Of a stretch of 64,000 bases of DNA, positions 11,101 through 26,764 are shown in pieces. The notes under the pieces were generated by a model. That model had not been told where the DNA came from. It made no database searches and saw nothing but the letters and a program-made list of their open reading frames with translations. The DNA lies in contig NZ_JAERRA010000001.1 of assembly GCF_016735685.1 (NCBI RefSeq), positions 682,001-746,000 of the forward strand, given 5' to 3'. Both the position numbers and the translations under genes were made by a program. The DNA is from Piscinibacter lacus (GTDB taxonomy: Bacteria; Pseudomonadota; Gammaproteobacteria; Burkholderiales; Burkholderiaceae_C). Each line of letters opens with the position of its first letter. Position 1 is the first letter of the stretch.

Positions 11101-11721
11101 ATGCAAAAGTTGCTGCTCGCCGTCGACCGCCTGTCCACAGGCTTCGGCAAGCTGTGCGCCTGGACGGTGGTCCTGCTCACCCTGTTGATTTCCTGGGAGG
11201 TCTTCTCCCGCTACGCGCTGAACACCCCGCATGCCTGGGTGCTGGACGCGCAGATCATGCTCTACGGCACCCTGTTCATGACGGCCGGTGCCTACACGCT
11301 GAGCAAGAACGGCCATGTGCGCGGCGACGTGCTCTACGGCTTCTTCCAGCCGCGCACCCAGGCCTCCATCGACCTGCTGCTCTACATCCTCTTCTTCTTG
11401 CCGGGCATCGTCGCGCTGACCTGGGCCGGCTGGACCTTCGCGCAGGAGTCGCTCGCAATCCGCGAGCAGACCTTCTCGGCCGATGCCCTGCCGCTCTATC
11501 CCTTCAAGTTCGTGATCCCCGTGGCCGGCGCCGTGCTGCTGCTGCAGGGCCTGGTCGAGATCGTGCGCTGCGTGATCTGCCTGCGCGATGGCGTCTGGCC
11601 CTCGCGCGAACAGGACGTCGAGGAAGTCGACGTCGACAAGCTCAAGGAAATGGTCCAGGTGAAGGACGAAGACATTGCCGCGCTCGACGCCCTGGGCGCC
11701 AAGAAAGGGGGCCAGGCATGA
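11101..11721 (+). CDS. TRAP transporter small permease (DctQ)
   Basis: The 206-aa small membrane subunit. It has the four predicted membrane segments of DctQ (about 17-37, 55-72, 92-115, 137-160), with the family features S-W-E-V-F-S-R-Y at about 31-38 after the first segment and G-H-V-R-G-D-V near residue 71-77. An acidic tail of about 40 residues (E-Q-D-V-E-E-V-D-V-D) is longer than usual. The start has GAACGAGGATCTGCG upstream. Its stop overlaps the dctM start (ATGA), so the two membrane subunits are translationally coupled. It pairs with DctM and the upstream binding protein. Confidence 0.92.
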   Translation: MQKLLLAVDRLSTGFGKLCAWTVVLLTLLISWEVFSRYALNTPHAWVLDAQIMLYGTLFMTAGAYTLSKNGHVRGDVLYGFFQPRTQASIDLLLYILFFLPGIVALTWAGWTFAQESLAIREQTFSADALPLYPFKFVIPVAGAVLLLQGLVEIVRCVICLRDGVWPSREQDVEEVDVDKLKEMVQVKDEDIAALDALGAKKGGQA

Positions 11722-13742
11722 AGCTGCGCAAGGAACTGTGGTTCGGCTTCTCGCTGATGGCGATCATCGTCGCCGCGGCCGGGGCCATGCTGATCAGCGT
11801 GGACACCATCACCAATGGCCACATCGGCCTGCTGATGCTCTCGCTGGTGGTCGTGGCGATCATGCTGGGCTTCCCCACCGCCTTCACGCTGATGGGCATG
11901 GGCATGCTCTTCACCTGGATCGCCTACGAGGAGAACACCACCAAGACCCTGGACCTGATGGTCCAGTCGGCCTACAAGGTGATGAGCAATGACGTGCTCA
12001 TCTCAATCCCGCTCTTCGTCTTCATGGGCTACCTGGTCGAGCGGGCCAACCTGATCGAGAAGCTGTTCAAGAGCCTGCACCTCTCGCTGTCTCGCGTGCC
12101 CGGCTCGCTCGCCGTGGCCACGCTGGTGACCTGCGCGGTCTTCGCCACCGCGACCGGCATCGTCGGTGCGGTGGTGACGCTGATGGGCCTGCTGGCCCTG
12201 CCCGCCATGCTGCGGGCGGGCTACAGCGTGCCGCTGTCGGCCGGGGCCATCACGGCCGGCGGCTGCCTGGGCATCCTGATTCCGCCTTCGGTGCTGCTCA
12301 TCGTCTATGGCGCCACGGCCGGTGTCTCGGTCGTCAAGCTCTACGCCGGCGCCTTTTTCCCCGGCCTGATGCTGGCGGGCCTGTACATCCTCTACGTCAT
12401 CATCGTGGCCAAGGTGAAGCCCGAGCTGGCGCCGCCGCTGAGTGCCGCCGAGCGGGCTGTGCCCCTGCCCCAGCCGCTCAAGGCAGTCGGCGCCACGCCC
12501 GATCGCCGCGTGCTGCCCATGCTGCTGGGCGCCCTCAAGGGTCGCCGCAATGCCGAGGTGCCGACCGGCTACCTGCTCAAGCAGCTTTTCGTTGCGCTGC
12601 TGCCGGCCTTGCTGGTGCTGCTGGTCGCGCTGGCGGCCTATCCGCGGGCGCCTTCGGCCGACGACGCAGCGGCCGCCGAGCCCGCCCTGCAGGAGATCGG
12701 CGCCGCCACCGAGCGCCGGGCCGACAACGGCGGCCTGGCCGAGCCGCCCGGGGCATCGGGCGGGCTGAGCGAGCCGCCCGGCGCGTCGGGTGGCTTGAGC
12801 GAACCGCCGGGCGCTTCGGCTGGGTTGAGCGAGCCCCCGGGCGCTTCGGGCGGGCTCAGCGAGCCGCCGGGTGCTGCCGGCGGCCTGAGCGAGCCCCCGG
12901 GTGCCGCGCCCGCCGCGGCGCCGAGCGGCGGCCTGGCCGAACCGGGCCTGGCCGAGCCCGGCGCGCCCGAGGCGCCGGCCGCGGCGGTCGGCCCCTCGCA
13001 GAACTACTGGATCGGCGTGGGCGTGGCCGGCCTCGCGCTGCTGGCCTACTACGGGATCCTCAGCACGACGCGCTTCGAGATCTTCAAGATGCTGCTGTCG
13101 AGCTTCTTCCCGCTGCTGATCATGATCCTGGCGGTGCTCGGCTCCATCGTCTTCGGCCTGGCGACGCCGACCGAAGCGGCGGCCATCGGCGCCCTGGGCG
13201 GCTTCCTGCTGGCGGCGGCCTACAAGCAGCTCAACTTCACCGTGGTCAAGGAGTCGGTTTACCTGACGGCCAAGACCTCGGCCATGGTCTGCTGGCTGTT
13301 CGTGGGCTCGGCCATCTTCTCGGCGGCCTTCGCCCTGCTGGGCGGGCAGGAACTGGTCGAGAACTGGGTGCTCGGCATGAACCTGAGCAAGACCGAGTTC
13401 CTGATCCTGAGCCAGGTGATCATCTTCGTGCTGGGCTGGCCGCTGGAGTGGACGGAGATCATCGTGATCTTCATGCCCATCTTCATCCCGCTGCTGGACA
13501 ACTTCGGCGTCGATCCGCTGTTCTTCGGCCTGCTCGTGGCGCTGAACCTGCAGACCGCCTTCCTGAGCCCGCCGGTGGCCATGAGCGCCTTCTATCTGAA
13601 GGGCGTGGCCCCCAAGCACGTGACGCTGAACCAGATCTTCAGCGGCATGCTGCCCTTCATGGGCATCCAGGTGATCGCGATCGTGCTGCTCTACGTCTTC
13701 CCCGAGATCGGCCTGTGGCTGCCGCAAGTGCTCTACAAGTGA
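11718..13742 (+). CDS. TRAP transporter large permease (DctM) with an internal repeat-bearing insertion
   Basis: Ion-coupled transport subunit. The family halves are both clear: residues about 1-250 include A-T-G-I-V-G-A-V-V near 155 and G-I-L-I-P-P-S-V near 191-198, and residues about 430-674 include A-T-P-T-E-A-A-A-I-G-A and the C-terminal helices. The total of 674 aa is far above the usual ~430. The excess is an insertion after the mid-protein loop: a hydrophobic segment (L-F-V-A-L-L-P-A-L-L-V-L-L-V-A-L near 293-308), an acidic/Ala stretch, six copies of a 10-residue unit G-G-L-S-E-P-P-G-A-S at 338-397 and another hydrophobic segment (I-G-V-G-V-A-G-L-A-L-L). The reading frame is intact throughout. 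Coupled to dctQ by ATGA. Confidence 0.92.
   Translation: MKLRKELWFGFSLMAIIVAAAGAMLISVDTITNGHIGLLMLSLVVVAIMLGFPTAFTLMGMGMLFTWIAYEENTTKTLDLMVQSAYKVMSNDVLISIPLFVFMGYLVERANLIEKLFKSLHLSLSRVPGSLAVATLVTCAVFATATGIVGAVVTLMGLLALPAMLRAGYSVPLSAGAITAGGCLGILIPPSVLLIVYGATAGVSVVKLYAGAFFPGLMLAGLYILYVIIVAKVKPELAPPLSAAERAVPLPQPLKAVGATPDRRVLPMLLGALKGRRNAEVPTGYLLKQLFVALLPALLVLLVALAAYPRAPSADDAAAAEPALQEIGAATERRADNGGLAEPPGASGGLSEPPGASGGLSEPPGASAGLSEPPGASGGLSEPPGAAGGLSEPPGAAPAAAPSGGLAEPGLAEPGAPEAPAAAVGPSQNYWIGVGVAGLALLAYYGILSTTRFEIFKMLLSSFFPLLIMILAVLGSIVFGLATPTEAAAIGALGGFLLAAAYKQLNFTVVKESVYLTAKTSAMVCWLFVGSAIFSAAFALLGGQELVENWVLGMNLSKTEFLILSQVIIFVLGWPLEWTEIIVIFMPIFIPLLDNFGVDPLFFGLLVALNLQTAFLSPPVAMSAFYLKGVAPKHVTLNQIFSGMLPFMGIQVIAIVLLYVFPEIGLWLPQVLYK
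12729..12908 (+). repeat. Six 30-bp tandem repeats inside dctM
   Basis: Six in-frame 30-bp units encode the decapeptide GGL(S/A)EPPGA(S/A), with the fourth copy starting AGL. Codon differences at third positions between copies (for example CTG/TTG, GAG/GAA, CCC/CCG) show the array is not freshly amplified. Two shortened units (GGLAEP, GLAEP) follow after a PAAAPS spacer. The array lies in a segment between two hydrophobic stretches of the DctM insertion. Confidence 0.95.
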
Positions 13743-13832: not shown

Positions 13833-13883
13833 GGGTGAGGGCCTGAAAGCTCACCCGAAAGCGGGGGTATTGCCGGTATATTG
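13833..13883 (+). promoter_or_regulatory. Candidate promoter/operator of the sigma-T1SS operon
   Basis: A 7-bp inverted repeat GGGTGAG-(10 nt)-CTCACCC is followed after 20 nt by TATATT within CGGTATATTG (13874-13883). The same 10-mer occurs at 22580-22589 upstream of the collagen-like protein gene of the same island. A clear -35 hexamer at 17 nt spacing is missing. Use as a common promoter element is inference. Confidence 0.35.
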
Positions 13884-14147
13884 CGGCGCTCGGCGGCTGG
13901 AGGCTCTTGTCTAGCTGTCGGTTTGTAATGTTCCCCGGGACGCAGGAAACGGATGCATCCGTTTCTCGCCCGAGCGGCCATGCCGGACCCACGGGGTGCG
14001 GCGCGGTCGCCGGACCGGCCGGGGCCAGGCCACACCCTCGTCTGTCAACCGCTCCGGGGCCCGGATGTCGATCTGCCCGCGTCTTCCTGCTGTGCATCGC
14101 GCCCTGCCACCGGTCCGGGCGGGTTTCATGCTTTCGCGGATGCCGGC

Positions 14148-14816
14148 ATGAACACCCTGGTGCTGCCGACCGGCCTGGAGGGCGTCGCAGGCGCCGCCCT
14201 GCGGGTGGCCTTGCCGGTGTCCGAGCCGGAGCGCATCGACCTGCTGATCCGCCGCATTCAGGATCGCGACCGCCAAGCCCTGCGCGAGCTTTATCTGGGC
14301 TACAGCACCCGCATTCGTAACTATGCGATGCGTGTGTTGCACGACGAGCACGCGGCCGAGGACGTCGCACATGACGTTTTTCTGCGGGTCTGGCGCTACG
14401 CTTCGTCCTACGATCCGCAGAAGGTGGGTCGGCCCGAGGCCTGGCTGTTCCAGATCGCCCGCAACCAGGCGATGAACCATGCCGTGCAACGGGCCAAGGT
14501 CATCCAGCTTGATCAAGAAGACGGCGAGTCCGCCGACATCACGGCATGGCAGGACGGTCACGAAGATGGCCGCGACCGCCTTTTCGACCGGGTCAGCGCC
14601 CGCAGCGAAGCCTTTGCCCAGGCCCTGCGTGCTCTGCCTTCCCACTACCGTCAGGTGCTGTTCTTGCGGTTCCACCACGATTTGTCCAATCCCGAGATCG
14701 CAGCCCAGCTCGGCCTGCCCGTCGGCACGGTCAAGACCTGGTTGCGTCGCGGCCTGATCCACCTGCGCGCCACGCTGCGGGTCGAGATCGCGCCCAGCGC
14801 CGGGAGCGCGGAATGA
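14148..14816 (+). CDS. ECF-type RNA polymerase sigma factor
   Basis: A 222-aa sigma-70 family protein of the extracytoplasmic-function group. Region 2 runs from about residue 40 to 110 (R-D-R-Q-A-L-R-E-L-Y, then A-A-E-D-V-A-H-D-V-F-L-R-V-W-R, the -10-binding core). Region 4 is about 160-212 and has A-L-P-S-H-Y-R-Q-V-L-F-L-R and the helix-turn-helix S-N-P-E-I-A-A-Q-L-G-L-P-V-G-T-V-K-T-W. The first ~30 residues are extra. The ATG at 14148 is the best placed but has no strong ribosome site, so the start is uncertain. The ATGA overlap to the 151-aa gene and the following secretion genes suggest it controls this island. Confidence 0.88.
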   Translation: MNTLVLPTGLEGVAGAALRVALPVSEPERIDLLIRRIQDRDRQALRELYLGYSTRIRNYAMRVLHDEHAAEDVAHDVFLRVWRYASSYDPQKVGRPEAWLFQIARNQAMNHAVQRAKVIQLDQEDGESADITAWQDGHEDGRDRLFDRVSARSEAFAQALRALPSHYRQVLFLRFHHDLSNPEIAAQLGLPVGTVKTWLRRGLIHLRATLRVEIAPSAGSAE

Positions 14817-15268
14817 GCCAGCCCATGCCGACCTCCGAGGTCATCGCCGGCCTGCTCGCGCTGGGCGTGCTGCGGCCCGAGGAAGTCCGTGCGGTCGAGC
14901 CCCTGCTGAGCGGTCATCCGGACATGCGCGGCCGGCTCGATGCCTGGCAGCGCGCGGTCCAGGATGCCGGCCTGGCCGAAGTCGACGCCGACGGGGAGGG
15001 CGACGATGCCTGGTCGCGCCTCGAAGCCCAGTTGAGCCGCGAAGCCGAGCAGCGCTTGCTGCTGCTTCAGCGCTACCCCGAATTCCGTGACGAGGCCCTG
15101 CGCCTGGTCGCCCTGCTTCGCCTGCTGCTCCGGCGGCTGCGCGAGCTTCGCCAAGCCCAGGCCCAGGGCCTGGCGCTGGATGCCCCCGCGAGCGCCCGCG
15201 CTGCCGGACCACGCGGGCTTGGGGGCGGCTTCCCGTCCGGTTTCCGCAACGAGGATGCCTCGCCGTGA
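14813..15268 (+). CDS. Hypothetical protein, candidate anti-sigma factor
   Basis: A 151-aa protein without a family I can name. The first ~90 residues are acidic with helical character (V-I-A-G-L-L-A-L-G-V-L-R-P-E-E-V near the start; D-A-D-G-E-G-D-D-A-W near 63). A segment at about 100-125 (L-R-L-V-A-L-L-R-L-L-L-R-R-L-R-E-L-R) is amphipathic and very basic, and the tail is Gly/Arg-rich. It lacks a clear transmembrane helix or a zinc-binding HxxxCxxC motif. Position, coupled by ATGA to the sigma factor and by GTGA to the ABC transporter, is the main reason to suspect an anti-sigma or regulatory role. That role is inference. Confidence 0.6.
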   Translation: MSQPMPTSEVIAGLLALGVLRPEEVRAVEPLLSGHPDMRGRLDAWQRAVQDAGLAEVDADGEGDDAWSRLEAQLSREAEQRLLLLQRYPEFRDEALRLVALLRLLLRRLRELRQAQAQGLALDAPASARAAGPRGLGGGFPSGFRNEDASP

Positions 15269-17112
15269 TTGAATTTCTGCTTCCCGAGCGCCTGCGCGCC
15301 AAGGGCGGGCTGGTGGATGCCGCAGTCGGCGGACAACTGTCCCGCGGTTTCTCCGATGCCCGAAAGCTGCTCAAGGTGTCGGCCCTGCTGTCGGCGCCGA
15401 TCGGCCTGCTGGCCCTGCTGCCCTCGGTGTTCACGCTGGAGGTCTATGACCGCGTGATCTACCGCCACGGCATGTCGACCCTGATTGCGCTGCTGGCCGG
15501 CGTGGCGGTGGCTGTGGCCATCGAGTGGATGCTGCGCCGCGGCCGTTCGCGGCGCCTGCGCGAGGCCGGGGCCTCGATCGACTGGTCGCTGCAGGGCGCC
15601 CTGCTCGAACGCATGCTGAACCAGCCGCTGCGCGCGCTGGAGGAGCGCACCGCCGCGGCCTGGATGGCGCTGTTCCGCGATGCGAGCGCGGTGCGGGTGC
15701 TGCTCACCGGCGTGATCGTGCAGTCCATCTTCGACCTGCCGGTGGCGCTGTTCGCCCTGGTCATCATCGGCATCGTCGCGCTGCCGGTGCTGCCGGTGGT
15801 GCTGATCGCCCTGCTGGTCTTCAGCGTGATGGCCTGGTGGCTGGCCGACGAGGTCAAGTCGGGCAAGGTGCTGGAGCTTCAGCGCGCCCGCAACCTCGAC
15901 ATGCTCACCGCGGAAGTCTGCCGAGCCCGCGAATCGGTCAAGTCGCTCGCCCAGCAGACCGCCGTGATCAAGCAGTGGCGCGACAACTACGAGAGCTGGC
16001 TGGCCGAGAGCTACACCAAGAGCGGCGAGATCGAGGAATCGCGCGAGCTTTCGCACTCGATGCTGATCATCACCTCGGTGGCCATCACCGCTTTCGGCGC
16101 GCTGGCGGTGGTCAACCAGTGGATGACGATCGGCGGCCTGATTGCCGCCAACATGCTGGCGCTCAAGGCCATCTCGCCGATCTCCAACCTGGCCGGCGCC
16201 TGGCGCCAGCTCGCGCACTCGATCGAGGCGGCCAACCGCCTGCGGACCGTCTTCGAATCCGAGGTCGAGCTGGGCCGCGGTGAACTGGAGGTGCCGCGCC
16301 CGAACGGCCGCGTGGTGCTGGATCGCGTGACCTTCCGCTTCGCGCCCGAGCTCGACCCGATCATCAACGAGGTCTCGCTCAGCCTGGAGCCGCGGCAGTT
16401 CTATGCCATCGTCGGCCGCAACGGCGCGGGCAAGTCCACCCTGCTCAAGTTGCTGGCCGGCCTCTACCGGCCCGAGCAGGGCCGCCTGCTGCTGGGCGAC
16501 TACGACCTGCAGCAGTTCTCCCGCGAGGAGACGGCGAGCTGGATCGGCACGCTGTCGCAGAACGTCTACTTCCTCGACGGCTCGATTGCCGACCAGCTAC
16601 GCCGCGTGGCGCCGGACGCGACCGACGACCAGATCGTCCGCGCCTGCCAGCTTGCCGGGGCGCATGCCTTCATCGCCAAGCTGCCGCGCGGCTACAACAC
16701 CCAGCTTCGCGAGGGCGGCCGGGCGCTGTCGGCCGGCGAGCGGCGCAAGATCGCGCTGGCCCAGGTGCTGCTGCGCAATCCGGTGGTGCTGGTGCTCGAC
16801 GAGCCGACCAATGACCTGGACCACGAAAGCGAGCTGCAACTCATTGCCGCGCTCAAGTCCATCGCCCGCATCCGAACGGTGCTGGTCGTGACGCATTCCG
16901 CCCGCATGGTGGCCAATGCCGATGCGGCGCTCTCGGTGATCGGCGACGGCTCGGTGCTCAAGATCGGCACCGACGAGGCGCTGGCCACCTATTTCTCCAA
17001 CGTCGCCAACGCGGCGGCCCGCAACACCCCTGCCGCCGCACCCGTGAACGGTGCCGCGCCGGTGACGGTGACCTTGCCGACGGCCCCCGGCGTGGGCGCG
17101 CGGGCCGCCTGA
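15265..17112 (+). CDS. Type I secretion ABC transporter (permease-ATPase fusion)
   Basis: Inner-membrane engine of a type I secretion system, 615 aa. The N-terminal ~330 residues form the membrane domain with six predicted helices; no C39 peptidase or C39-like domain is present, as in PrtD-type exporters. The ATPase has Walker A GRNGAGKS at 384-391, a signature with Ala in place of the first Gly (L-S-A-G-E, 488-492) and Walker B ending D512-E513. A 30-residue Ala/Pro/Val-rich tail follows. The GTG start overlaps the previous stop. HlyD and TolC homologues follow in order, so the three-part secretion channel is complete. Confidence 0.93.
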   Translation: MIEFLLPERLRAKGGLVDAAVGGQLSRGFSDARKLLKVSALLSAPIGLLALLPSVFTLEVYDRVIYRHGMSTLIALLAGVAVAVAIEWMLRRGRSRRLREAGASIDWSLQGALLERMLNQPLRALEERTAAAWMALFRDASAVRVLLTGVIVQSIFDLPVALFALVIIGIVALPVLPVVLIALLVFSVMAWWLADEVKSGKVLELQRARNLDMLTAEVCRARESVKSLAQQTAVIKQWRDNYESWLAESYTKSGEIEESRELSHSMLIITSVAITAFGALAVVNQWMTIGGLIAANMLALKAISPISNLAGAWRQLAHSIEAANRLRTVFESEVELGRGELEVPRPNGRVVLDRVTFRFAPELDPIINEVSLSLEPRQFYAIVGRNGAGKSTLLKLLAGLYRPEQGRLLLGDYDLQQFSREETASWIGTLSQNVYFLDGSIADQLRRVAPDATDDQIVRACQLAGAHAFIAKLPRGYNTQLREGGRALSAGERRKIALAQVLLRNPVVLVLDEPTNDLDHESELQLIAALKSIARIRTVLVVTHSARMVANADAALSVIGDGSVLKIGTDEALATYFSNVANAAARNTPAAAPVNGAAPVTVTLPTAPGVGARAA

Positions 17113-17146
17113 GCGCGCCCCGATTCCCGAAGTCCACGGAGACCGC

Positions 17147-18463
17147 GTGCCAGGATCCAACGCCGAACAGTTTCTCGAACGTCTCAAGCGCAAGCAGGAC
17201 GAACCCCCGCCCCAAGGCTGGCGAGCCTGGGGCCCCAAGGTGGCCCTCGCCGCCGTGCTGACGGCCCTGGCCGTGGCGCTCTTCATTCCGGTGGAGTCGA
17301 CCATCACGGCATCCGGCCAGATCGTGCCCTCGGCCCGGACCAAGACCGTGCAGCACCTGGAGGGCGGCATCGTCGGCGAGGTGCTGGTCAAGGACGGCCA
17401 GCAGGTCCAGGCCGGCGACGAGCTGCTGCGCATCGACCTCGGTGCCGCCGGTCTGAACCTGGAGGAGATCACCGCCAAGGTCGCCGCCTTGCGGGCCGCC
17501 CAGCTTCGGCTGACGGCCGAGTCCACCGGCGCGGCGCTGGCGGCCTCGGCTTTCCCCGAGGACATCCCGCCCGAGGTCCGCGATGCCGAGCTTCAGGCCT
17601 ATCGCGCCCGACTGCTGGAGCAGGACGGCCAGGTGCTGGCCGCGCGCTCGCAGGTGCAGATCCACGCCAGCCGCGGCGAGGAGATCCAGGCCAAGATTGA
17701 AGGCCTGAAGATCCGCGTCGAGATCCTCAAGAGCGAATACGACCTGACCGCCCAGCTCGCCCGAGAGAAGCTCGTGGCCGAGCTGGAGGCCCTTCAGCTC
17801 CGCAAGGAGTACGAGACCGCAAGGGCCGAGCTGAGCAGCACCCGGCAGGGCCTGATCTCGGCCCAGGCGGCGGCCAATGAGGCGCGCGGCAAGCTGGCCG
17901 AGGCCGAGGGCCGCTTCCGCCGCCGCGCGGCCGAGGAACTGCTGACCACCGAGCGCAACCTGTCGACCGCCAGCGAGGACCTGCGCCGGGCGCGCAGCCA
18001 GCGCGAGCGCACCAGCATCACGGCGCCGGCCACCGGCATCGTCAAGGGCCTGCGCTCGGGCCAGCCGGGCTGGGTCGTCAAGCCGGGCGAGCAGGTGCTG
18101 GAGATCGTGCCGACCGATGCGCTGATCGAGGTCGAGGCCCGCCTCAAGCCGGCCGATCGCGGCCTCGTCACCCCCGGCATGCCGGTGAAGATCAAGGTCT
18201 CGGCCTACGACTTCCTGCGCTATGGCGCCCTGGACGGCAAGGTGCTGCGCATCGCCGCCGACGCCGACAAGCTGCCCGACAGCCAGGAGAGCTACTTCAA
18301 GATGGTGGTCGAGACCGAGGGCACCTCGCTGGGCGAGGAGAAGCAGCCGGTCACGGCCGGCATGCAGGCCGATGTGGATGTGATCATCGGCCACCAGCCT
18401 TTCATCTGGTTCCTGCTGCGGCCGGTGCTCAAGGTCGGGGCCGAGGCCTTCCGGGAGCCCTGA
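17147..18463 (+). CDS. HlyD-family periplasmic adaptor of type I secretion
   Basis: Membrane-fusion protein of 438 aa linking the ABC transporter to the outer-membrane channel. A single N-terminal membrane helix covers about residues 25-47. Next comes the first lipoyl half-motif T-V-Q-H-L-E-G-G-I-V-G-E-V (near 66-78), a long Glu/Ala/Lys-rich coiled coil (about 100-290), the second half-motif T-A-P-A-T-G-I-V-K-G-L near 290 and a beta-barrel end with G-M-P-V-K-I-K-V and the terminal helix V-L-K-V-G-A-E-A-F. The start is a GTG with CACGGAGA upstream. It lies 34 nt after the ABC gene and 1 nt before the TolC gene. Confidence 0.94.
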   Translation: MPGSNAEQFLERLKRKQDEPPPQGWRAWGPKVALAAVLTALAVALFIPVESTITASGQIVPSARTKTVQHLEGGIVGEVLVKDGQQVQAGDELLRIDLGAAGLNLEEITAKVAALRAAQLRLTAESTGAALAASAFPEDIPPEVRDAELQAYRARLLEQDGQVLAARSQVQIHASRGEEIQAKIEGLKIRVEILKSEYDLTAQLAREKLVAELEALQLRKEYETARAELSSTRQGLISAQAAANEARGKLAEAEGRFRRRAAEELLTTERNLSTASEDLRRARSQRERTSITAPATGIVKGLRSGQPGWVVKPGEQVLEIVPTDALIEVEARLKPADRGLVTPGMPVKIKVSAYDFLRYGALDGKVLRIAADADKLPDSQESYFKMVVETEGTSLGEEKQPVTAGMQADVDVIIGHQPFIWFLLRPVLKVGAEAFREP

Positions 18464-18464
18464 G

Positions 18465-19940
18465 ATGGTCCGCTGCCCCTTGCCCCTGCGCCTTCGTCCG
18501 CTGTTGCTGGCCTTGCTGGTCGCGGGCCTGGCGACGCCGGCTGCCGCCGTGTCCCCGGAAGTCGAGGCCATGGCCGAGCGCCTGGCCACCCTGGTGCGCA
18601 GCGCCCCGGAGGTGCAGCAGGCGCAGGCCGAGATCGCCGCCAGCCAGGCCGAGGTCCGCGCGGCTGAAGTGGCGCGCTACCCCCGCTTCGGCATCGACAC
18701 GGTCTTCGGCAATGTCGTGACCGACCTCGGCAACGACCGCGACCGGCGGGCCGATGTCCGCGTCGTCCCGAACGTCGCCGTCACCGTCTTCGATGCAGGC
18801 AAGGCGGGCGCGCGGGTCCGCGCGGCGCGCAAGGGCGTGGCCGCTTCCGAGGCCTTCGCTCGCAAGGCGGCCGAGACCGTGGTGCTCGACACCCTCACCG
18901 CCTACTTGCAGGTGCTGCGCTTCGGCCTGCTGGCCGAGGTCGGCAGCTCGTCCGAAACGGCGCTGCGCGAGCTGATGGCGTTGGAAGAGCGCAAGGCCGA
19001 GCTGGGGGGCGCCGGTCTCACCGACGCCCGGCTGGCCTCGTCGCGCATGGCCCTGTCCGCCAACCGGGTGCTGCAGTTCCGCCTCAACCTCGAAGAGGCC
19101 AGCGCCCGCTTCACCGCCCTGTTCGGCGTGTCACCTCGCCTGGACACCCTGCCCGTGGTTCGCATCCCGGGCGACTGGCTGAGCGGGGGCTTCGACGACT
19201 CGCTGCGCATCGCCCTGCTGCTCAATCCCGACCTGCGCGAGGCCTCGTCCCGACTGGAGCAGGCCCAGGAGCGCCTGGAAGCCGAACGCGCCGGCCGCTT
19301 CCCGGCGGTCGACCTCACGGTGAGCAAACGTTACGAGTTCCCGGGTGGCTTCACCGAGAAGCCGACCTTCGGCTTCCGCATGGCCCTGGGCTCGGGCACC
19401 TTTTTCGAAAGCGCCGCCAAGGTTCAGCGTGCCGAGGCCGAGGTCGGCAGCCAGGACCAGCGCCGCCAGGCCCTGCTGCGCGATGTGACCCAGGCCGCCA
19501 GCGCCGCCTGGCGACGCGCCCGGCTGGGCGGCCAGCGCGAAGACCTGTTGCAGACGGCGGCCAATGAATCCGTCGCTGTCTTCCGCGCCCGCAAGCGCCT
19601 GAATGCCGCGGGCCGGGAGACGACGCTGGCCATGCTCGACGCCCAGGTCGAGGCCAACAATGTGCTGATCGACTGGGTGAACGCCGTGTTCGACCAGCGC
19701 CTCAACGAGCTCAAGCTGGCCAAGGAGGTCGGCAAGCTTCTGCCGCCCGAAGGCGGCGAGGGCGACTGGGCCCGCGCCCTGTTCACCGACGAAGATTTCC
19801 GCGCCGGCGTGCGCGAGCTGCTGCGCAATGCCGTGCCCGGCCCGGCCGTGCTGCAGGCCGAGCGCAAGCCGGCGGTGCCGGTTCGCCTCGGCGCCTGGGC
19901 GGGTGCCTTGTCCCTGCGACTCGATCCCGCGCGGCCCTGA
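18465..19940 (+). CDS. TolC-family outer-membrane channel of type I secretion
   Basis: Outer-membrane efflux protein of 491 aa. Residues 1-28 are a signal peptide ending P-A-A-A. Two repeats of the TolC helical hairpin follow, marked by A-E-I-A-A-S-Q-A-E-V near 45 and R-E-A-S-S-R-L-E-Q-A-Q-E near 257, each with a strand region after it (Y-P-R-F-G-I-D-T-V-F; G-R-F-P-A-V-D-L-T-V). Its ATG comes 1 nt after the HlyD stop. The C-terminal ~60 residues are unlike TolC and probably periplasmic. It completes the ABC-HlyD-TolC channel for this locus. Confidence 0.92.
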   Translation: MVRCPLPLRLRPLLLALLVAGLATPAAAVSPEVEAMAERLATLVRSAPEVQQAQAEIAASQAEVRAAEVARYPRFGIDTVFGNVVTDLGNDRDRRADVRVVPNVAVTVFDAGKAGARVRAARKGVAASEAFARKAAETVVLDTLTAYLQVLRFGLLAEVGSSSETALRELMALEERKAELGGAGLTDARLASSRMALSANRVLQFRLNLEEASARFTALFGVSPRLDTLPVVRIPGDWLSGGFDDSLRIALLLNPDLREASSRLEQAQERLEAERAGRFPAVDLTVSKRYEFPGGFTEKPTFGFRMALGSGTFFESAAKVQRAEAEVGSQDQRRQALLRDVTQAASAAWRRARLGGQREDLLQTAANESVAVFRARKRLNAAGRETTLAMLDAQVEANNVLIDWVNAVFDQRLNELKLAKEVGKLLPPEGGEGDWARALFTDEDFRAGVRELLRNAVPGPAVLQAERKPAVPVRLGAWAGALSLRLDPARP

Positions 19941-19996
19941 GGCCCGTGCGGCCCGACCCGGGCGCCGGTCGGCCGCAACGGAAACAGACGGATTCA

Positions 19997-20018
19997 ATTC
20001 GCCCCGAGCGGGGCGAAT
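19997..20018 (+). terminator. Hairpin after the T1SS TolC gene
   Basis: Perfect 9-bp stem ATTCGCCCC / GGGGCGAAT with tetraloop GAGC, 57 nt after the tolC-like stop. The tail CCTCCGG has no T-run. It separates the secretion operon from the 531-aa protein gene and may attenuate or end the transcript. Confidence 0.5.
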
Positions 20019-20099
20019 CCTCCGGCTCCTCCCTTCGGTAACTCTTATGACGTCGACAGGCACGGTCCCTGCTGGGACAACCTGCCACCTGGAGTTGGA

Positions 20100-21695
20100 A
20101 TGGACACGCTGGACCTTGAACACGCCCTGCTCGGGCAGAGCCTGAATCAACTGCTCGCCCTGCAATCGACGGAGGCGGGGGGCACCGTTGCAGCCCTCGC
20201 CGACGCCGCGCCGGGCCTGCTCGACGGCCTGCAGGGTGGCGGCCTTGCCCTGCAGGAACTGCTGTCGGGCATCGTGGCCGGTGCCGCCCTGCCCCTTCTG
20301 CATGCCGAATCGCTGGCCGAGCTCAGTGCGCTGCTCGGTACCGGGCCGCTTGGCAGCGTGGGCAGCAGCAGCCTCGACCTGGGTCCCCTGCTCGACGATC
20401 TCGCCCTGCCCCTGCAAGGCAGCTTGCTTGAAACCATCGACGATCTGCTCGGCCTGGCCCCGGACGGCCTGCCCGCGGTCGACGGCTTGCTTGACCTCGA
20501 CGGTTTGCTGGGTGAGGTGCTGGCGGGCGATCTGGGCGGCCTGAGCCAGGCACTCGGCGGCTTGCCGGCGCAACTGGGCGGCTTGGGCGGCCTGGGCGGC
20601 ACCACCCTGGGCAGCACGCTCAGCCAAGTCGAGACGGTCATCGCCCAAGTGCTCGACCAACTCGAAGGCCTGCTGGGCGACAACCTCGTCCTGCCGGTCG
20701 TCCTCGACGATTTGCCCTTGGACGAGACCGTCCAGGCCATCCAGCAGATCCTCGGCAACACCCTGGTGCCCCTGGTCGGCGAAGGGGTTGATCTGCTGCA
20801 GGACATCGTCATCGACCTGCAGACAGCCCTGGATGCCGGCACCCTGGCCGCGATCTCGGGCCTAAGCCACGATCTGCTCGACCACACCGTCGGCACCGTG
20901 CAGGCCATCGCCGGCATCGTCAGCGTCGAAGCCCTCAGCCCGGCCCTGGACCTGGGCGCGTCGGCGATCGATCAGGTCAATGACCTGGTCGCTCAACTGG
21001 CGTCGCCCCTGGGCGACGCGCTGCCCGTGCTCTATCCCGTGCTTGCCCAGGTGCAGCAGCGGCTGGACGGGGTGGGTGAGCTGGTCGGCACGCTCGACAC
21101 GCTGGCCGAGCCGGTGCTTGAAGCCGGCTCCGGCGCGCTCGACAACCTGGTGCAGATCGTCGACGGTGCCCTGGCGGTGCTGGCCCCGACGATCGGCACC
21201 GTGGATGCGCTGCTGCAAGGCGGCGACCTGCCCCTGCTGGGCGACCCGCTGAACGTGCTCGACGGCCTGCCCCTGGTCGGTGATCTGCTCGGCGCCGTGA
21301 CCGGGCTGCTGGGCGGCAGCGGCCTGCCCCTGGGCGGTTCGGGCGGTCTGCCCTTGCTCGGCGACCTGCTGGGCGGCGATTTGCTGCCCGCCGGCCTGGC
21401 CGATCCGCTGGCCGTCCTTGAGGGCCTGCCCCTCGACGGCGGCCTGCTGGCGCCCGTTCAGGCGCTGCTGGGCGGTCTGCCGCTCGTGGGGGATGCTCCG
21501 GGGCTCGACGGCCTGCTGGGCGCGGCCGAGGGCCTGCTCGGGGGCGACCTGCCGGCCCTGGGGCTGGAGCCGGTGGCCGAGATCGCCGACAGCCTGCTGG
21601 GCGAGCTGCCCCTGCTCGACGGCCTGACGGCGCCGCTCGGCGGCGCGCTCCATCTCGGCGGGCTGGATACGCTGATTCCGGGCAGCAATCCCTGA
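20100..21695 (+). CDS. Leu/Gly/Asp-rich protein, candidate type I secretion substrate
   Basis: I do not recognise this 531-aa protein. It is extremely biased: Leu, Gly, Asp, Ala and Val dominate, there are almost no Lys or Arg residues and no Cys, so it is strongly acidic. Residues 1-330 are made of helical-looking stretches (such as L-L-D-D-L-A-L-P-L-Q-G and T-V-Q-A-I-Q-Q-I-L-G). Residues 360-530 contain imperfect units built on G-L-P-L-x-G-D-L-L-G-G. There is no Sec signal and no strict RTX nonapeptide. A ribosome site CTGGAGTTGGA precedes the ATG. Position directly after a complete type I secretion system, the acidic Cys-free make-up and similarity to the tail of the protein at 22647 suggest a secreted surface or matrix protein; that is inference. 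Confidence 0.7.
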   Translation: MDTLDLEHALLGQSLNQLLALQSTEAGGTVAALADAAPGLLDGLQGGGLALQELLSGIVAGAALPLLHAESLAELSALLGTGPLGSVGSSSLDLGPLLDDLALPLQGSLLETIDDLLGLAPDGLPAVDGLLDLDGLLGEVLAGDLGGLSQALGGLPAQLGGLGGLGGTTLGSTLSQVETVIAQVLDQLEGLLGDNLVLPVVLDDLPLDETVQAIQQILGNTLVPLVGEGVDLLQDIVIDLQTALDAGTLAAISGLSHDLLDHTVGTVQAIAGIVSVEALSPALDLGASAIDQVNDLVAQLASPLGDALPVLYPVLAQVQQRLDGVGELVGTLDTLAEPVLEAGSGALDNLVQIVDGALAVLAPTIGTVDALLQGGDLPLLGDPLNVLDGLPLVGDLLGAVTGLLGGSGLPLGGSGGLPLLGDLLGGDLLPAGLADPLAVLEGLPLDGGLLAPVQALLGGLPLVGDAPGLDGLLGAAEGLLGGDLPALGLEPVAEIADSLLGELPLLDGLTAPLGGALHLGGLDTLIPGSNP

Positions 21696-21725
21696 GCCCT
21701 CGGCCGTCCCGGCCGCTCCAAGAAC

Positions 21726-21759
21726 CAAACCCCGTGGACCGAGCGGTCCACGGGGTTTG
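21726..21759. terminator. Strong bidirectional terminator
   Basis: Perfect 15-bp stem, CAAACCCCGTGGACC (21726-21740) and its complement at 21745-21759, with tetraloop GAGC. On the plus strand it is followed by TTGTTTCACG. It lies between two convergent genes, the Leu/Gly/Asp-rich protein (plus) and the OmpA lipoprotein (minus), and can serve both because the stem contains A and T tracts at its base. Confidence 0.88.
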
Positions 21760-21806
21760 TTGTTTCACGCAATCCGCCTCCCGAACGGTCCGGGAGGCCG
21801 AAGGGT

Positions 21807-22361
21807 TCAGTAGCGGATCTCGGCGCGACGGTTCTTGGCGCGGCTGGCCGCGTCGCTGCCCGGCACGGCCGGACGCTCCAGGCCAAAGCTGACCGCTTCG
21901 ACCTGCGCCTCGGGCACGCCCAGGATGACCATCATCTTGCGCACCGCTTCCGAGCGGCGCTGGCCCAGGGCCAGGTTGTATTCGCTGGAGCCGATCGAGT
22001 CGGTGTGGCCTTCGATGCGGGCCTTGACCTCGGGGCTGGCGCGCAGCGTCCGGGCATGCGACTCGACGATGCCGCGGTACTCGGCCTTCACGTCGTACTT
22101 GTCGAAGTCGAAGTAGACGATGTCGCGCAACTTCAGGTTGTCGCTGTCGGCGTCGGCCGTCTTCACGATGTTCAGCGCCTCGGGCTGGCTGATCGTGCGG
22201 CCCAGGTTGGACTCGATCACGGTCTTCTGCTCGCTGCTCGACGAGGTGGCGGCGGCCGTGGTTGAGGCCTCCTTCTTACTTTCGGGGCTCTGGGTGGCAC
22301 AGCCAAACAGGCCCAGGGAAGTCGCCAGCAGCAGCGTCGACAGACGGGGGATCATCTTCAT
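21807..22361 (-). CDS. OmpA-family peptidoglycan-associated lipoprotein
   Basis: Outer-membrane lipoprotein of 184 aa. The signal ends at a lipobox with Cys21 (L-G-L-F-G-C). A Ser/Thr/Ala/Lys linker spans about 22-60, and the OmpA C-like domain about 75-184 carries the peptidoglycan-binding signature G-H-T-D-S-I-G-S-x-x-Y-N-L-A-L-G-Q-R-R near 118-136. The ATG at 22361 is preceded by TGGAGCG and gives the signal peptide; the longer frame adds residues without signal character. It is smaller and more linker-rich than Pal, and no tol genes are adjacent. It is divergent from the collagen-like protein gene, and may anchor surface material of this island to the wall (inference). Confidence 0.88.
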   Translation of the reverse strand: MKMIPRLSTLLLATSLGLFGCATQSPESKKEASTTAAATSSSSEQKTVIESNLGRTISQPEALNIVKTADADSDNLKLRDIVYFDFDKYDVKAEYRGIVESHARTLRASPEVKARIEGHTDSIGSSEYNLALGQRRSEAVRKMMVILGVPEAQVEAVSFGLERPAVPGSDAASRAKNRRAEIRY

Positions 22362-22579
22362 GGAATTCGCTCCAGGGGTCTCGTGGTCGGTGGTGGAGGT
22401 GGGCTGAACACGGCCAGACGGCCCCGGAACACCCACCGATCAAGGACCGAAGTGTGCAACAGGACGGCCCGAACGCCGAGTTCCGACTTGCGTCCGGCGA
22501 TCACCCCCCATTTGAGCTGAAAGCCGCGCCCTGTCTCGCCTTTCGTGAGCTCCACCACGAATCGCTTCCCCGGTCTGTT

Positions 22580-22589
22580 CGGTATATTG
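22580..22589 (+). promoter_or_regulatory. CGGTATATTG element upstream of the collagen-like protein gene
   Basis: The 10-mer CGGTATATTG, with TATATT as a possible -10 box, lies 57 nt before the chosen ATG at 22647 and is identical to 13874-13883 upstream of the sigma-factor operon. No good -35 hexamer is seen at standard spacing. A small inverted repeat TCGAA-ACATC-TTCGA follows within 30 nt. Confidence 0.35.
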
Positions 22590-22646
22590 GCGACATAGTC
22601 GAAACATCTTCGATCGCCGAACAACGTCTTGACAAGGATGAGACCC

Positions 22647-24290
22647 ATGGAAAACGCCAATGCAGGTGGCAGCGTCGCCGCCGTGAACCTCGCGACCGAA
22701 GCGCCTGCCGCCGCTGCTGACGCGGCCGCCTCTCAGGGCCTCGTCGTCCTGCGGGGCGGTCAGCCTGTGACCATCGCCCCGCGCGAAGCCCTGCTGGCGG
22801 GCGACCGGGTCGTGACGGGCAACCAAGCCGTCGAGGTCGTCGTGCCGAACGCCGATGGCAGCCGTCAGGCGCTGGTCAAGGTCGCGCCGAATTCCGAGGT
22901 CGTCATCCAGCCGGCCAAGGTCGACCCCGCTGCGGCGGCGGGCGACCTGCTGGTCGTGGCCGGCGATGCCGAGTTCGTCGAGATTGTTGACGCGGCGCCG
23001 ATCACCCTGGTCAAGAAGAGCGCGTCCGCCGTGGGCGCCGGGGCCGGTGGCGAAGAAGCTGCGGGCGGCCTGGGCCTGCTGCCGCTGCTGGCGGGCGGTG
23101 CGCTGCTCGCCGCCGGCATTGCCGCGGCCAACGACGACGATGATGACAATTCGACGTCGCCGACCGGTCCCACCGGCCCCACGGGTCCGACCGAGCCGAC
23201 CGGCCCCACCGGCCCCACCGGCCCCACCGGCCCCACGGGTCCGACCGAGCCGACGGGTCCCACCGGCCCGACCGGCCCCACGGGTCCCACTGAGCCGACC
23301 GGCCCCACCGGTCCGACGGGCCCCACCGGTCCGACGGGTCCGACCGAGCCGACGGGTCCGACGGGCCCCACTGGCCCGACCGGCCCCACCGAGCCGACCG
23401 GCCCCACGGGTCCCACCGGCCCGACTGGCCCCACGGGTGACAACCCCACGCTCACCGATGGCGTGGACCGCGTGGTCGACGGCGTCACCGACCTGGTCGA
23501 CAACCTGCTGGGCGGCCTGCTCGGCACCGGCCTGACCGATGGTCTGCTCGGCAACACCGGCGGCCTTACCAACGGCGTCGACCAACTGGTCGATGGCGCC
23601 ACCGACCTGGTCGACGAGCTCGCGCTGGGCAACAACCTGAACGGCGGCGGCCTGCTGGACGTGGTCGATGGCGTGGTGGCCGAAGTGGCCCCGGTGACGG
23701 ACGTCATCACCGGCAATCCGCTGCTGTCCGACACCCTGACGGATTCGGTCGACACCGTGACCGACGTCGTCGGCGATCTGCTCACCACCGACGCCCTCAA
23801 TTTCGACGGTGGCCTGCTCGGCGCCCTGCTGGGCTCGACGGGTGCGGCCGATCCGGCGGGCAGCCTGGTCGACACCCTGCTGGGTACCGTGGGCCAGGGC
23901 GCGGCGGCCGGTCCGGTCGACACCGTGGGTGGCCTGCTCGACACCGTGACCTCGGCCTTGCCGGGCACGGACGGCTTGCTGTCCGGTCTGGGCGACGACT
24001 CGGCCGGTGGACTGCTGGGCAACCTGGGCTCGGTCCTGCCGGGCACGGACGGTCTGCTGGGCGGCACCGGTTCGGGTGACCTGCTGGGCAATCTGGTCGA
24101 CACCCTGGGCGGCGTCCTGCCGGCCGGCGGCGACCTGCTGCCCTCGACCGACGGTCTGCTGGGTGGCGGCCTGCTCGACACTGTCACGGGCGCCGTGGCC
24201 GACCTGCCGCTGGCCCTGCCGGAGACCCCGTCCCTGCTGGGCGAGCTGCCGCTCGACCTGGGCAATCTCACCGGCGGCCTGACCCCCTGA
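22647..24290 (+). CDS. Collagen-like repeat protein with retention-like N-terminus, candidate T1SS substrate
   Basis: A 547-aa protein I can place only by parts. Residues 30-90 resemble a FecR/LapA-retention-type beta domain ([13 protein letters not shown], then [10 protein letters not shown]). A run A-A-A-G at 96-99 matches the consensus of LapG-type cleavage sites, though it lies in Ala-rich sequence. A hydrophobic segment (about 141-161) ends in N-D-D-D-D-D-N, as seen near the N-terminus of many Bap/LapA-like adhesins. Residues 172-264 are 31 P-T-G/E triplets. The rest (265-547) is Leu/Gly/Asp/Thr/Val-rich and like the protein at 20100. There is no Sec signal. I chose ATG 22647 with AAGGA 8 nt upstream; ATG 22638 is possible. 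Secretion by the nearby T1SS is inference. Confidence 0.75.
23160..23438 (+). repeat. 31 collagen-like Pro-Thr-Gly/Glu triplets (9-bp units)
   Basis: Thirty-one uninterrupted 9-bp units encode P-T-G, with Glu in place of Gly in five of them. The Glu positions split the array into blocks of 4, 6, 5, 6, 5 and 5 triplets, that is a higher-order period of 11 triplets (33 residues, 99 bp). Codon use alternates CCGACGGGT, CCCACCGGC and mixes, so units are similar but not identical DNA and replication slippage remains likely. Confidence 0.97.
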
Positions 24291-24470: not shown

Positions 24471-25511
24471 TTGCCGTTCTCTTTCCAACGACTGCGTTTC
24501 GTCGCGGCCCCGGCCGTGTTGCTGGCCTGCCTGCTCGGCGCCCCGGGCATTGCGCGGGCGGATGAGGCCGACGAAGTCGCCCAACTGCTGCAGTCCGGCC
24601 GGGCGGTCGAGGCCTTGCGGCTCGTCGATCAGCGCCTGGCCAAGCGCCCGGACGATGTCCAGTTGCGCTTCCTGCGCGGCGTCGCCCTGGCCGAGCAGAA
24701 CCGCGTCAGCGAAGCCATCGCCGTCTTCAACAAGCTGGTGCAGGACCATCCCGAGCTGCCCGAACCCTACAACAACCTGGCCGTGCTTTATGCCAACCAG
24801 GGTCAGTTCGACCGGGCCCGCAGCGCGCTGGAAACCGCGATCCGCACCAACCCCAGCTACGCCACCGCGCACGAGAACCTGGGCGATCTCTATGCCAAGC
24901 TTGCGAGCCAGGCTTACAGCAAGGCCCTGCAGCTCGATGCCGGCAATTCGCGCGCGGCGCCCAAGCTGGCCATGATCCGCGAGCTGATCTCGCTCAAGGG
25001 CCCGCAGGCGCCAGCCGCCGTGGCCCGCGAGCCCGAGGTGGCGGCCCTGCCTTCGGTGGCCGTCGCGCCCGCCGCGCCAGTGGCCCTGCCGGTGCAGCCG
25101 GCGATCGCGCCGGCCGCCGAGGCCGAGAAGCCCGTCGCTGCCGCGCCGGCCGCGCCGGAAGCCACGGCCGACGACGCCCGGGCCGAAGTCCGTCGCGCCG
25201 TGGAGGCCTGGGCCGAGGCCTGGAGCCGCAAGGACCTGAAGGCCTACTTCGCCGCCTACACGCCCAATTTCTCCGCCGACGGCATGAAGCGCGCCGCCTG
25301 GGAAAGCAGCCGCCGCGAGCGCATCACCAGCAAGAAGAGCATCCGCATCGGCCTGGACGACTGGCGCATCGAAGTCCGCGGCAAGCAGGCCACCGCCAGC
25401 TTCCAGCAGGACTACCGGGCCGACACCTTCTCGGCCAATTCGCGCAAGACGCTCAAGCTGGTCCGGCAAGGCGGGCAATGGCGCATCGAGCGCGAGAGCA
25501 CCGGATCCTGA
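24471..25511 (+). CDS. Periplasmic TPR protein with NTF2-like C-terminal domain
   Basis: A 346-aa exported protein. With the TTG start at 24471 (GGAG 6 nt upstream) it begins with a signal peptide ([15 protein letters not shown]). Three to four tetratricopeptide repeats occupy about 32-165, e.g. [18 protein letters not shown] near 100-117. An Ala/Pro-rich linker covers about 180-235. The C-terminal ~110 residues ([11 protein letters not shown] then W-R-I-E-V-R-G-K and Q-W-R-I-E-R-E-S) form an NTF2/SnoaL-like domain of the type linked to L,D-transpeptidases (Cds6 family). The next gene encodes an L,D-transpeptidase with a related end, 2 nt away. Confidence 0.85.
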
Positions 25512-25513
25512 GC

Positions 25514-26764
25514 ATGCGTTCAGCCTTCGGGCGGATCGCCGGCCTGCTGCTGATGCTGGCTGCGTGGGCCGGCCCCGCACTTCAGCAAGCGGCCGAAGCC
25601 CGTGAGGCCCGGCGCACGGAGGCCAAGCCCGCCGACGCGCGCCCGCCCCAGCCCGGCAGTGCGCAGGCCGAAGCCCGTCTGCATGCCATCCACACCCTGA
25701 TCGGCCACGGCCGCATGGCCGAAGCGCGCGCCCAGGCCGAGCGCCTGGTGCGCGACTTTCCGCAGTTCCAGCTCGGCCACATGCTGCTCGGCGACCTGCT
25801 GAGCGCCCAGGCCGGCCGCTTCGGCGCGGGCGGCGTGCTGCCGGCCCGGCTCAACGCGACCCAGGGCGAGGCCCTGCTCCAGTTGCGCGACGAAGCCCGC
25901 CAGCGCCTGCTGGCCGTCCAGGACCGCCCGCCCGCCGGCCGCCTGCCCAGCGCCTTCCTGGCCCTGCCGGCCACGGTGCGGCATGCGGTGGCCGTGGATG
26001 CCTCGCGCCACCGGCTCTATGTCTTTGAGCGCTCCGCGCGCGGCCTGCGCCTCGTTGCCGACCATTACGTCTCGCTCGGCAAGTCCGGCGTCGACAAGCG
26101 GGTCGAGGGCGACCAGCGCACCCCCGTCGGCGTCTACTTCACCACCAGCCGCCTCGATGGCAAGCAGCTCGCCGACCTCTACGGCAGCGGCGCGCTCACC
26201 CTGAACTACCCGAACGAGATCGACCGCCTCAAGGGCCGCACCGGCAGCGGCATCTGGCTGCACGGCACGCCGGCCGCCAACTACGCACGCGCGCCGCTCA
26301 GCACCGACGGCTGCATCGTGCTGTCCAACCCCGACATGCAGCGCCTGATGCAGACCGTCGCGGCCCAGGGCACGCCGGTCGTCGTGGCGCACAAGCTGGA
26401 CTGGGTCGTGCCCGAGGCTTCCGAGCGCAGCAACCGCGGCTTCGGCGAGGCCCTGCGCGCCTGGTGGCAGGCCCGCGACCTGGGCGACGCCAATCGTCTG
26501 GCGGCCTTCTACGCCGCCTCGGCCAGCCCGCTGGCCGAGGCGCCCACGCTGCGCCGCGTCTCGTCCCGCGCGGGGCCGGCGTCCGTGCAGCGCTTCCAGT
26601 CGCCCAAGGACCTGAGCATCCTCACCTGGCGCGACCAGCTCGACCATGCTGTCGTCACCTTCGGCGACGTCGGCCGCGGGGCGCGCACCGGCGTCGTCCG
26701 CCGCCAGTACTGGACGCACGACGGCCAGCGCTGGCGCATCGTGCACGAATCGCTCATCGGCTGA
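25514..26764 (+). CDS. L,D-transpeptidase (YkuD domain) with NTF2-like tail
   Basis: Periplasmic peptidoglycan enzyme of 416 aa that makes 3-3 crosslinks or attaches proteins to the wall. Residues 1-29 are a signal peptide. A TPR-like helical stretch is at about 45-125 (R-L-H-A-I-H-T-L-I-G-H-G-R-M-A-E-A). The YkuD domain (about 155-295) has the catalytic pair His250 (W-L-H-G-T) and Cys267 in S-T-D-G-C-I-V-L-S. The last ~100 residues are NTF2-like and end Q-R-W-R-I-V-H-E-S, like the preceding TPR protein. The ATG follows the TPR gene stop by 2 nt. Its 3' end overlaps the convergent PGA-hydrolase gene by 11 nt. Confidence 0.9.
   Translation: MRSAFGRIAGLLLMLAAWAGPALQQAAEAREARRTEAKPADARPPQPGSAQAEARLHAIHTLIGHGRMAEARAQAERLVRDFPQFQLGHMLLGDLLSAQAGRFGAGGVLPARLNATQGEALLQLRDEARQRLLAVQDRPPAGRLPSAFLALPATVRHAVAVDASRHRLYVFERSARGLRLVADHYVSLGKSGVDKRVEGDQRTPVGVYFTTSRLDGKQLADLYGSGALTLNYPNEIDRLKGRTGSGIWLHGTPAANYARAPLSTDGCIVLSNPDMQRLMQTVAAQGTPVVVAHKLDWVVPEASERSNRGFGEALRAWWQARDLGDANRLAAFYAASASPLAEAPTLRRVSSRAGPASVQRFQSPKDLSILTWRDQLDHAVVTFGDVGRGARTGVVRRQYWTHDGQRWRIVHESLIG

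Follow-up and report, generated by a model that had tools for sequence, protein, structure and literature searches.

What a type I secretion system (T1SS) encoded behind a sigma-factor gene exports, and what keeps it under control, are the questions raised by a locus of the freshwater bacterium Piscinibacter lacus, which lies in a 64,000-nucleotide stretch (hereafter the window; contig NZ_JAERRA010000001.1, positions 682,001 to 746,000) of its 3.03-Mb genome (G000). We regard this locus as probably a self-contained, sigma-switched surface-display cassette, in which the protein encoded from position 22647 (the 22647 protein) would be exported by the T1SS and stay tethered to the cell. Among named relatives, Aquariibacter albus (Burkholderiales, Sphaerotilaceae) stands closest, with an ABC exporter that is 97% identical. 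Relatives were surveyed in sets of 60 relatives, 299 genomes of the family, an order sample of 399 genomes and 369 genomes at class level, and gene families were named from Pfam and TIGR/NF profiles with their curated cut-offs. In the accessible parts of the open-access literature, we recognised no description of this cassette.

The gene order and couplings claimed in a first-pass annotation of the window were found as described. A gene for a sigma factor of the extracytoplasmic function (ECF) type (14148..14816, plus strand, 222 amino acids), which carries regions 2 and 4 only (Pfam Sigma70_r2 and r4_2; TIGR02937 above the cut-off) and has a ratio of nonsynonymous to synonymous substitutions (dN/dS) of 0.11, overlaps by ATGA with a gene for an anti-sigma-like protein of 151 amino acids (14813..15268, plus strand). 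The latter overlaps by GTGA with the gene of a type I ATP-binding cassette (ABC) exporter (15265..17112, plus strand, 615 amino acids; Pfam ABC_membrane and ABC_tran, TIGR03375/TIGR01842-like below the cut-off), in which no C39 domain was matched. After 34 nt follows the HlyD-type periplasmic adaptor (17147..18463, plus strand; TIGR01843 above the cut-off) and, 1 nt further, the TolC-type outer membrane protein (18465..19940, plus strand; Pfam OEP above, TIGR01844 below the cut-off), so that the exporter, adaptor and channel that make up a T1SS are encoded together. The gene of a second candidate substrate, the 20100 protein (20100..21695, plus strand, 531 amino acids, no family match), starts 159 nt behind tolC, and the 22647 gene itself (22647..24290, plus strand, 547 amino acids) shows sub-threshold collagen-type matches only. 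The OmpA/Pal-like lipoprotein gene (21807..22361, longest open reading frame to 22436; Pfam OmpA, TIGR02802 just below the cut-off) is indeed located between the two candidates, and it lies on the minus strand, which the first-pass annotation had left unmentioned.

Both candidates are acidic and free of Cys, as had been claimed, with 68 acidic versus 1 basic residue in the 20100 protein (Leu 27%, Gly 17%, Asp 9%) and 66 versus 9 in the 22647 protein; neither contains Trp, and the pI of 4.05 obtained is the floor value of the calculator. No Sec signal was seen in either protein as judged by eye, and the reported absence of an RTX (repeats-in-toxin) nonapeptide array was borne out, as neither contains a GGxGxD repeat. 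Comparison with the A. albus orthologues confirmed that both genes evolve as coding sequences: dN/dS was 0.23 for 22647 and 0.43 for 20100, third codon positions accounted for 226 of 374 and 242 of 511 differences, respectively, and internal stops were absent.

The 22647 protein and its putative exporter subfamily

Alignment of the 22647 protein with its relatives revealed a beta-rich N-terminal domain (N-domain), a hydrophobic Gly/Ala segment, an Asp cluster, a (GPT)n stalk and a Leu/Gly/Asp-rich region, in this order; the N-domain and the (GPT)n tract had not been part of the first-pass annotation. The conserved N-domain covers approximately residues 30-125 (22734..23021, plus strand), carries the motif L-x-A-GDR-V and was modelled by AlphaFold2 with a confidence (pLDDT) of ~75 over residues 31-90. 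The collagen-like GPT/EPT tract at residues 172-263 (23160..23435, plus strand), which we take as a stalk, scored 26.4 bits with Pfam Collagen and did not reach the gathering score of 27.2 bits, and the Leu/Gly/Asp-rich region spans residues 264-547 (23436..24287, plus strand; Leu 22%, Gly 21%, Asp 13%). The stalk is the variable part: it consists of GPT units in the window protein and in A. albus, SD in two genomes (G023, G384), AD in six (G017, G903, G932, G961, G968, G1037), DPT/DPTN in three (G128, G942, G1041), DTT in G841 and PPP in some paralogues, and a protein named from Aquabacterium (P0005) contains Ig-like Big_13/Big_6 domains between the N-domain and the Leu/Gly/Asp-rich region. 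In this survey, from which matches spanning fewer than 60 model positions were omitted and 2 of 34 frames shorter than 150 amino acids were not counted, Cys was absent from 26 of the 32 remaining frames, and the six Cys-bearing ones include frames broken by assembly gaps or frame shifts.

One N-domain profile was built from 32 sequences, after removing 9 of 41 rows (7 duplicates and 2 weak ones); duplicates, pieces below 80 residues, sequences with X and matches with E >1e-3 were excluded from the alignment of relatives. In the genome survey, the N-domain profile matched 18 of the 299 family genomes, and an ABC exporter of the window's subfamily (E<=1e-95) was found in 16, all of them among these 18. 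The two N-domain genomes outside the ABC set are G841, where the ABC gene is split over two overlapping frames adjoining the N-domain gene, and G963, whose match (E 3.9e-7) we judged false, as it belongs to a FecR-type protein of 167 amino acids without the architecture described above; it was kept among the 18 genomes and omitted from the neighbourhood count. In the order sample, the N-domain occurred in 4 and the ABC exporter in 5 of 399 genomes, all four N-domain genomes having the exporter; in the fifth ABC genome (G182, 36% identity), the gene adjoins a Cys-free frame of 2,653 amino acids that reaches the end of the stretch. The Fisher P values of this association are 1.2e-24 and 4.8e-9 for the family and order samples, calculated with genome relatedness ignored. 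At class level, 3 of 369 genomes had a match to the exporter; one of these was new (G492, 37% identity), with the gene lying beside a Gly/Asp-rich, Cys-free frame of 3,235 amino acids. Of the 17 genomes counted, 14 have the N-domain gene next to the T1SS, and in the other three (G817, G924, G932), the neighbourhood is interrupted by a contig end. Co-occurrence and neighbourhood support a link of the 22647 protein to this T1SS, and the claim that it is a secreted substrate therefore gains ground.

A search with the N-terminal 165 amino acids of the window protein hit 3 of the 60 relatives, including a weak match in G002 (E 4e-4), and missed G017 and G023, both recovered by the profile. The N-domain region of 22647 was found in at least 5 proteins of the protein database, and that of a relative gave no match among the 8000 candidates sharing most words, a null result that is uninformative because only these candidates were scored. 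A scan of genome contigs with the ABC exporter returned four loci, two of close relatives and two at 25-26% identity. Foldseek yielded 25 matches of the N-domain at E<=10 and none at E<=0.001, which does not exclude families outside this list; the best structural match, a weak one, is an anchoring domain (5ix9, probably the adhesin domain of Marinomonas primoryensis; a paper naming 5ix9 was not found). At profile level, the N-domain weakly resembles LapA-type modules and, equally weakly, FecR domains. Searches against PDB sequences with the N-domain profile (5 matches, the best an oxidoreductase at E 0.015) and with one retention module (1 match, E 0.37) were not used.

The sigma factor and a motif in two leaders

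Between the two Aquariibacter species compared, that of the window and A. albus, one block is conserved in the sigma gene leader and one in the 22647 leader, and both blocks hold the same 9-mer CGGTATATT, a feature also new relative to the first-pass annotation. It is located at 13874..13882 (plus strand) 5' of the sigma gene and at 22580..22588 (plus strand), 58 nt before 22647, is promoter-like, and is kept at both places in A. albus. By exact search, each of the two genomes contains exactly these two copies, and the reversed control word is absent from both. In dinucleotide shuffles of the window, CGGTATATT occurred with a mean of 0.00; one-mismatch copies were not found elsewhere in the window, and two at one mismatch were attained in 6 of 100 shuffles. 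All loci fetched from other genera were devoid of it. Because CGGTATATT is found only at these two places, it provides the strongest evidence supporting a joint control of the sigma operon and 22647, and the sigma factor itself may recognise it. The earlier proposal that the sigma factor controls both candidates gains support for the operon and 22647 and is weaker for 20100, which lacks a copy of its own; the latter gene would need read-through or its own promoter.

For the putative anti-sigma role of the 151-amino-acid protein, whose gene overlaps the sigma gene, the match to profile NF052375 amounts to 21 bits (E 2.7e-4), below the cut-off of 100 bits. Its counterpart in G038 scored 33.9 bits (E 3e-8), also below the cut-off, and a frame of 122 amino acids at the equivalent position in Polaromonas did not match the profile. 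A transmembrane segment was not evident by eye in the window protein. The sigma leader additionally contains a palindrome, AAACGGATGCATCCGTTT (13947..13964), which may represent an operator or an RNA hairpin; in the A. albus counterpart, AAACGGTTGCGACCGTTT, the arms are preserved through a paired, compensatory-looking change.

Two forms of the cassette and neighbouring genes

A sigma-led form of the cassette was found in the two Aquariibacter species, in Polaromonas sp. CG_9.7 and in G038 from a different family. In Polaromonas, the N-domain frame is divergent from the sigma gene and ends with a stop directly after the N-domain, near the contig end, with no stalk seen. G038 encodes an N-domain protein of 253 amino acids on a separate contig and frames of 473 and 284 amino acids 3' of tolC, the longer of which is Cys-free, acidic and Leu/Ser/Thr-rich. 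The second form, present at 12 loci, shows the order N-domain gene, OmpA gene, Mur-ligase-like gene, ABC and HlyD, with TolC next in 9 of 12 and the remaining three stretches ending inside HlyD; in G932, a different contig carries the N-domain piece, and the stretches L052 and L161 start at or within the N-domain gene. Searching these 12 stretches of 16-20 kb with a model built on three sigma sequences revealed no sigma gene. Besides that of the window, 12 cassettes have an OmpA gene adjoining the N-domain gene or a piece of it. In G999, the N-domain gene lies immediately 5' of the T1SS, and in the 20-kb stretch we detected neither an OmpA gene nor a Mur-ligase-like one.

The Mur-ligase-like gene between OmpA and ABC, a kind seen in the 12 cassettes without a detected sigma gene, codes for a MurF-like ligase domain fused to an N-terminal part of ~600 amino acids without family match (L052:5669-8734, L068:6892-9975, L106:4087-7206). 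In genus g479, the N-domain was matched 8, 3 and 6 times (G924, G817 and G999) alongside one T1SS of the subfamily each. The window genome contains two tandem paralogues of 22647 with the same N-domain, ~60% identical (L055:8303-11526, corresponding to G000:C1:1826303-1829526), close to ABC-type and, by eye, FtsX-like genes; no T1SS gene was matched there, and CGGTATATT is absent. Leu-rich paralogues of 20100, each close to a gene that by eye looks like a Flp-type pilin gene, occur in both Aquariibacter genomes (L056:6662-8158, 39% identical; L058:6500-7816, 38%), with leader conservation around GTGTGAATCCGGTAACAGGG. Just 3' of 22647, genes for a TPR/Cds6-like protein and an L,D-transpeptidase (YkuD) occupy positions 24471-26764 of the window in an order identical to that of A. 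albus, and positions 11718-13742 encode a multi-spanning permease-like protein, presumably of the TRAP type, one loop of which contains a repeat of GGLSEPPGA-like units.

Tethering, release and known systems

In the course of events we propose, the ECF sigma factor would be held by the co-translated anti-sigma-like protein until released, and would then activate, in both cases from a CGGTATATT promoter, its own operon (sigma factor, 151-amino-acid protein, ABC, HlyD, TolC and, by read-through, 20100) and the 22647 gene. The 22647 protein would leave the cell through ABC-HlyD-TolC without a Sec signal; its N-domain and hydrophobic segment may be retained as an anchor, with the stalk and the Leu/Gly/Asp-rich part displayed outside, and the OmpA lipoprotein may help to hold it in place at the outer membrane or the peptidoglycan. 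Some observations weigh against this proposal. The 39 N-domain matches in 18 genomes, up to eight per genome, imply many copies unlinked to a T1SS. Among the 60 relatives, 20100 was matched in two only, both within the genus, and its paralogue lies beside a gene that by eye resembles Flp-type pilins and not beside a T1SS.

The proposed system resembles known ones in parts. Adhesins of the LapA type combine an N-terminal retention module, export by a T1SS and a [T/A/P]AAG cleavage site, according to PMC13090378. The 22647 protein shares an N-terminal beta domain preceding the putatively displayed part and, by inference, export via ABC/HlyD/TolC, but differs in being small and lacking RTX or Ig matches. 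At E<=0.001, the retention module profile NF033682 matched neither G000 nor G001, and at E<=5 none of eight N-domain-bearing sequences, while it gave five above-cut-off matches in 4 of the 40 genomes searched. A LapG-type protease (PF06035) was matched in none of eight genomes at E<=0.001, a search in which only Caulobacter was positive among 14 control genomes. The window protein has EAAG instead of the cleavage site, and its relatives vary in an Ala/Gly-rich context (TAAG in G384, PAAG in G017 and G903). With NF033682 unmatched in G000 and G001 and LapG unmatched in the eight genomes searched, we rejected the LapA system as such. Similarity to Bap-like Ig-repeat adhesins (NF040520, Blp2-like) is given by the Ig domains of P0005 and its sub-threshold NF040520 match, whereas in the window protein a collagen-like tract takes the place of such domains. 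The long SD dipeptide stalk of the G023 relative recalls MSCRAMM-type adhesins (SdrC/SdrD/ClfA) with matches below the cut-off, but the likeness is confined to the repeat, and the cassette is Gram-negative and T1SS-linked. Bucl8, reportedly a collagen-like Burkholderia protein with outer-membrane efflux domains, likewise places a collagen-like tract within a Burkholderiales export locus, but 22647 is devoid of an OEP domain and TolC is encoded by a separate gene. Finally, the overlapping sigma and anti-sigma-like genes and the motif common to sigma and target gene are reminiscent of ECF sigma/anti-sigma pairs, except that this operon runs on into the T1SS and that the genome holds just two exact motif copies.

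For 20100, the case as a T1SS substrate is weaker than for 22647. It may instead be an intracellular or membrane-associated protein located incidentally 3' of tolC, a possibility we take seriously while leaning away from it. Its restriction to the genus among the 60 relatives, the paralogue near the pilin-like gene, the absence of an N-domain and the lack of a confident fold (mean pLDDT 35, making the model unusable for a fold search) fit this explanation, as opposed to its acidic, Cys-free composition and its place behind tolC, both shared with the 473-amino-acid protein of G038. In the protein database, 20100 had at least 5 matches, all close and unnamed.

We consider it unlikely that this T1SS exports the 22647 protein and releases it fully as an extracellular matrix or surface-active protein, with the N-domain serving for export or chaperone binding. 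Its small size and the missing LapG and LapA retention-module matches would suit such a role, but the fixed order of N-domain, hydrophobic segment and stalk resembles an anchored stalk, and the weak structural match to an anchoring domain points the same way. Less likely still is the further idea that the T1SS exports other cargo and that the N-domain proteins are FecR-like and anchored in the inner membrane, sharing only neighbourhood and regulation with it. The equally weak FecR similarity, the hydrophobic Gly/Ala segment after the N-domain and the unlinked copies are compatible with it; on the other side, the N-domain occurs in the family genomes only with this ABC subfamily, bar the FecR-type match, its gene mostly neighbours the T1SS, and the inspected cassettes have no alternative substrate-like gene in common. 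We rejected an RTX substrate, as neither candidate has nonapeptides and as, on a point that the first-pass annotation had named as refuting, the three places with RTX-type matches in the window genome all lie outside the cassette; the long RTX frame is situated near the end of contig 1, ~6-11 kb from separate HlyD/ABC genes. It is therefore unlikely that the T1SS of the window merely serves RTX export.

Tethered display of 22647 therefore remains our preferred reading, and it leads to a wider proposal on which we hold the balance to be even: that the N-domain proteins form an unnamed T1SS-displayed family with a fixed N-terminal anchor, a Leu/Gly/Asp-rich tip, exchangeable stalks (GPT, SD, AD, DPT, DTT, PPP or Ig) and a dedicated ABC subfamily, which in Aquariibacter is joined to a sigma factor with a two-promoter, exact-motif regulon of exporter operon and displayed protein. 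If true, the known T1SS substrates would be joined by a non-RTX class for which no LapG is detectable and whose stalk can be exchanged behind a conserved anchor, and what the exporter requires could therefore be separated from a mere spacer. The two-copy motif would then define a minimal, closed sigma regulon that is directly testable, and the almost perfect pairing of the N-domain with the ABC subfamily could guide the search for further substrates in environmental bacteria.
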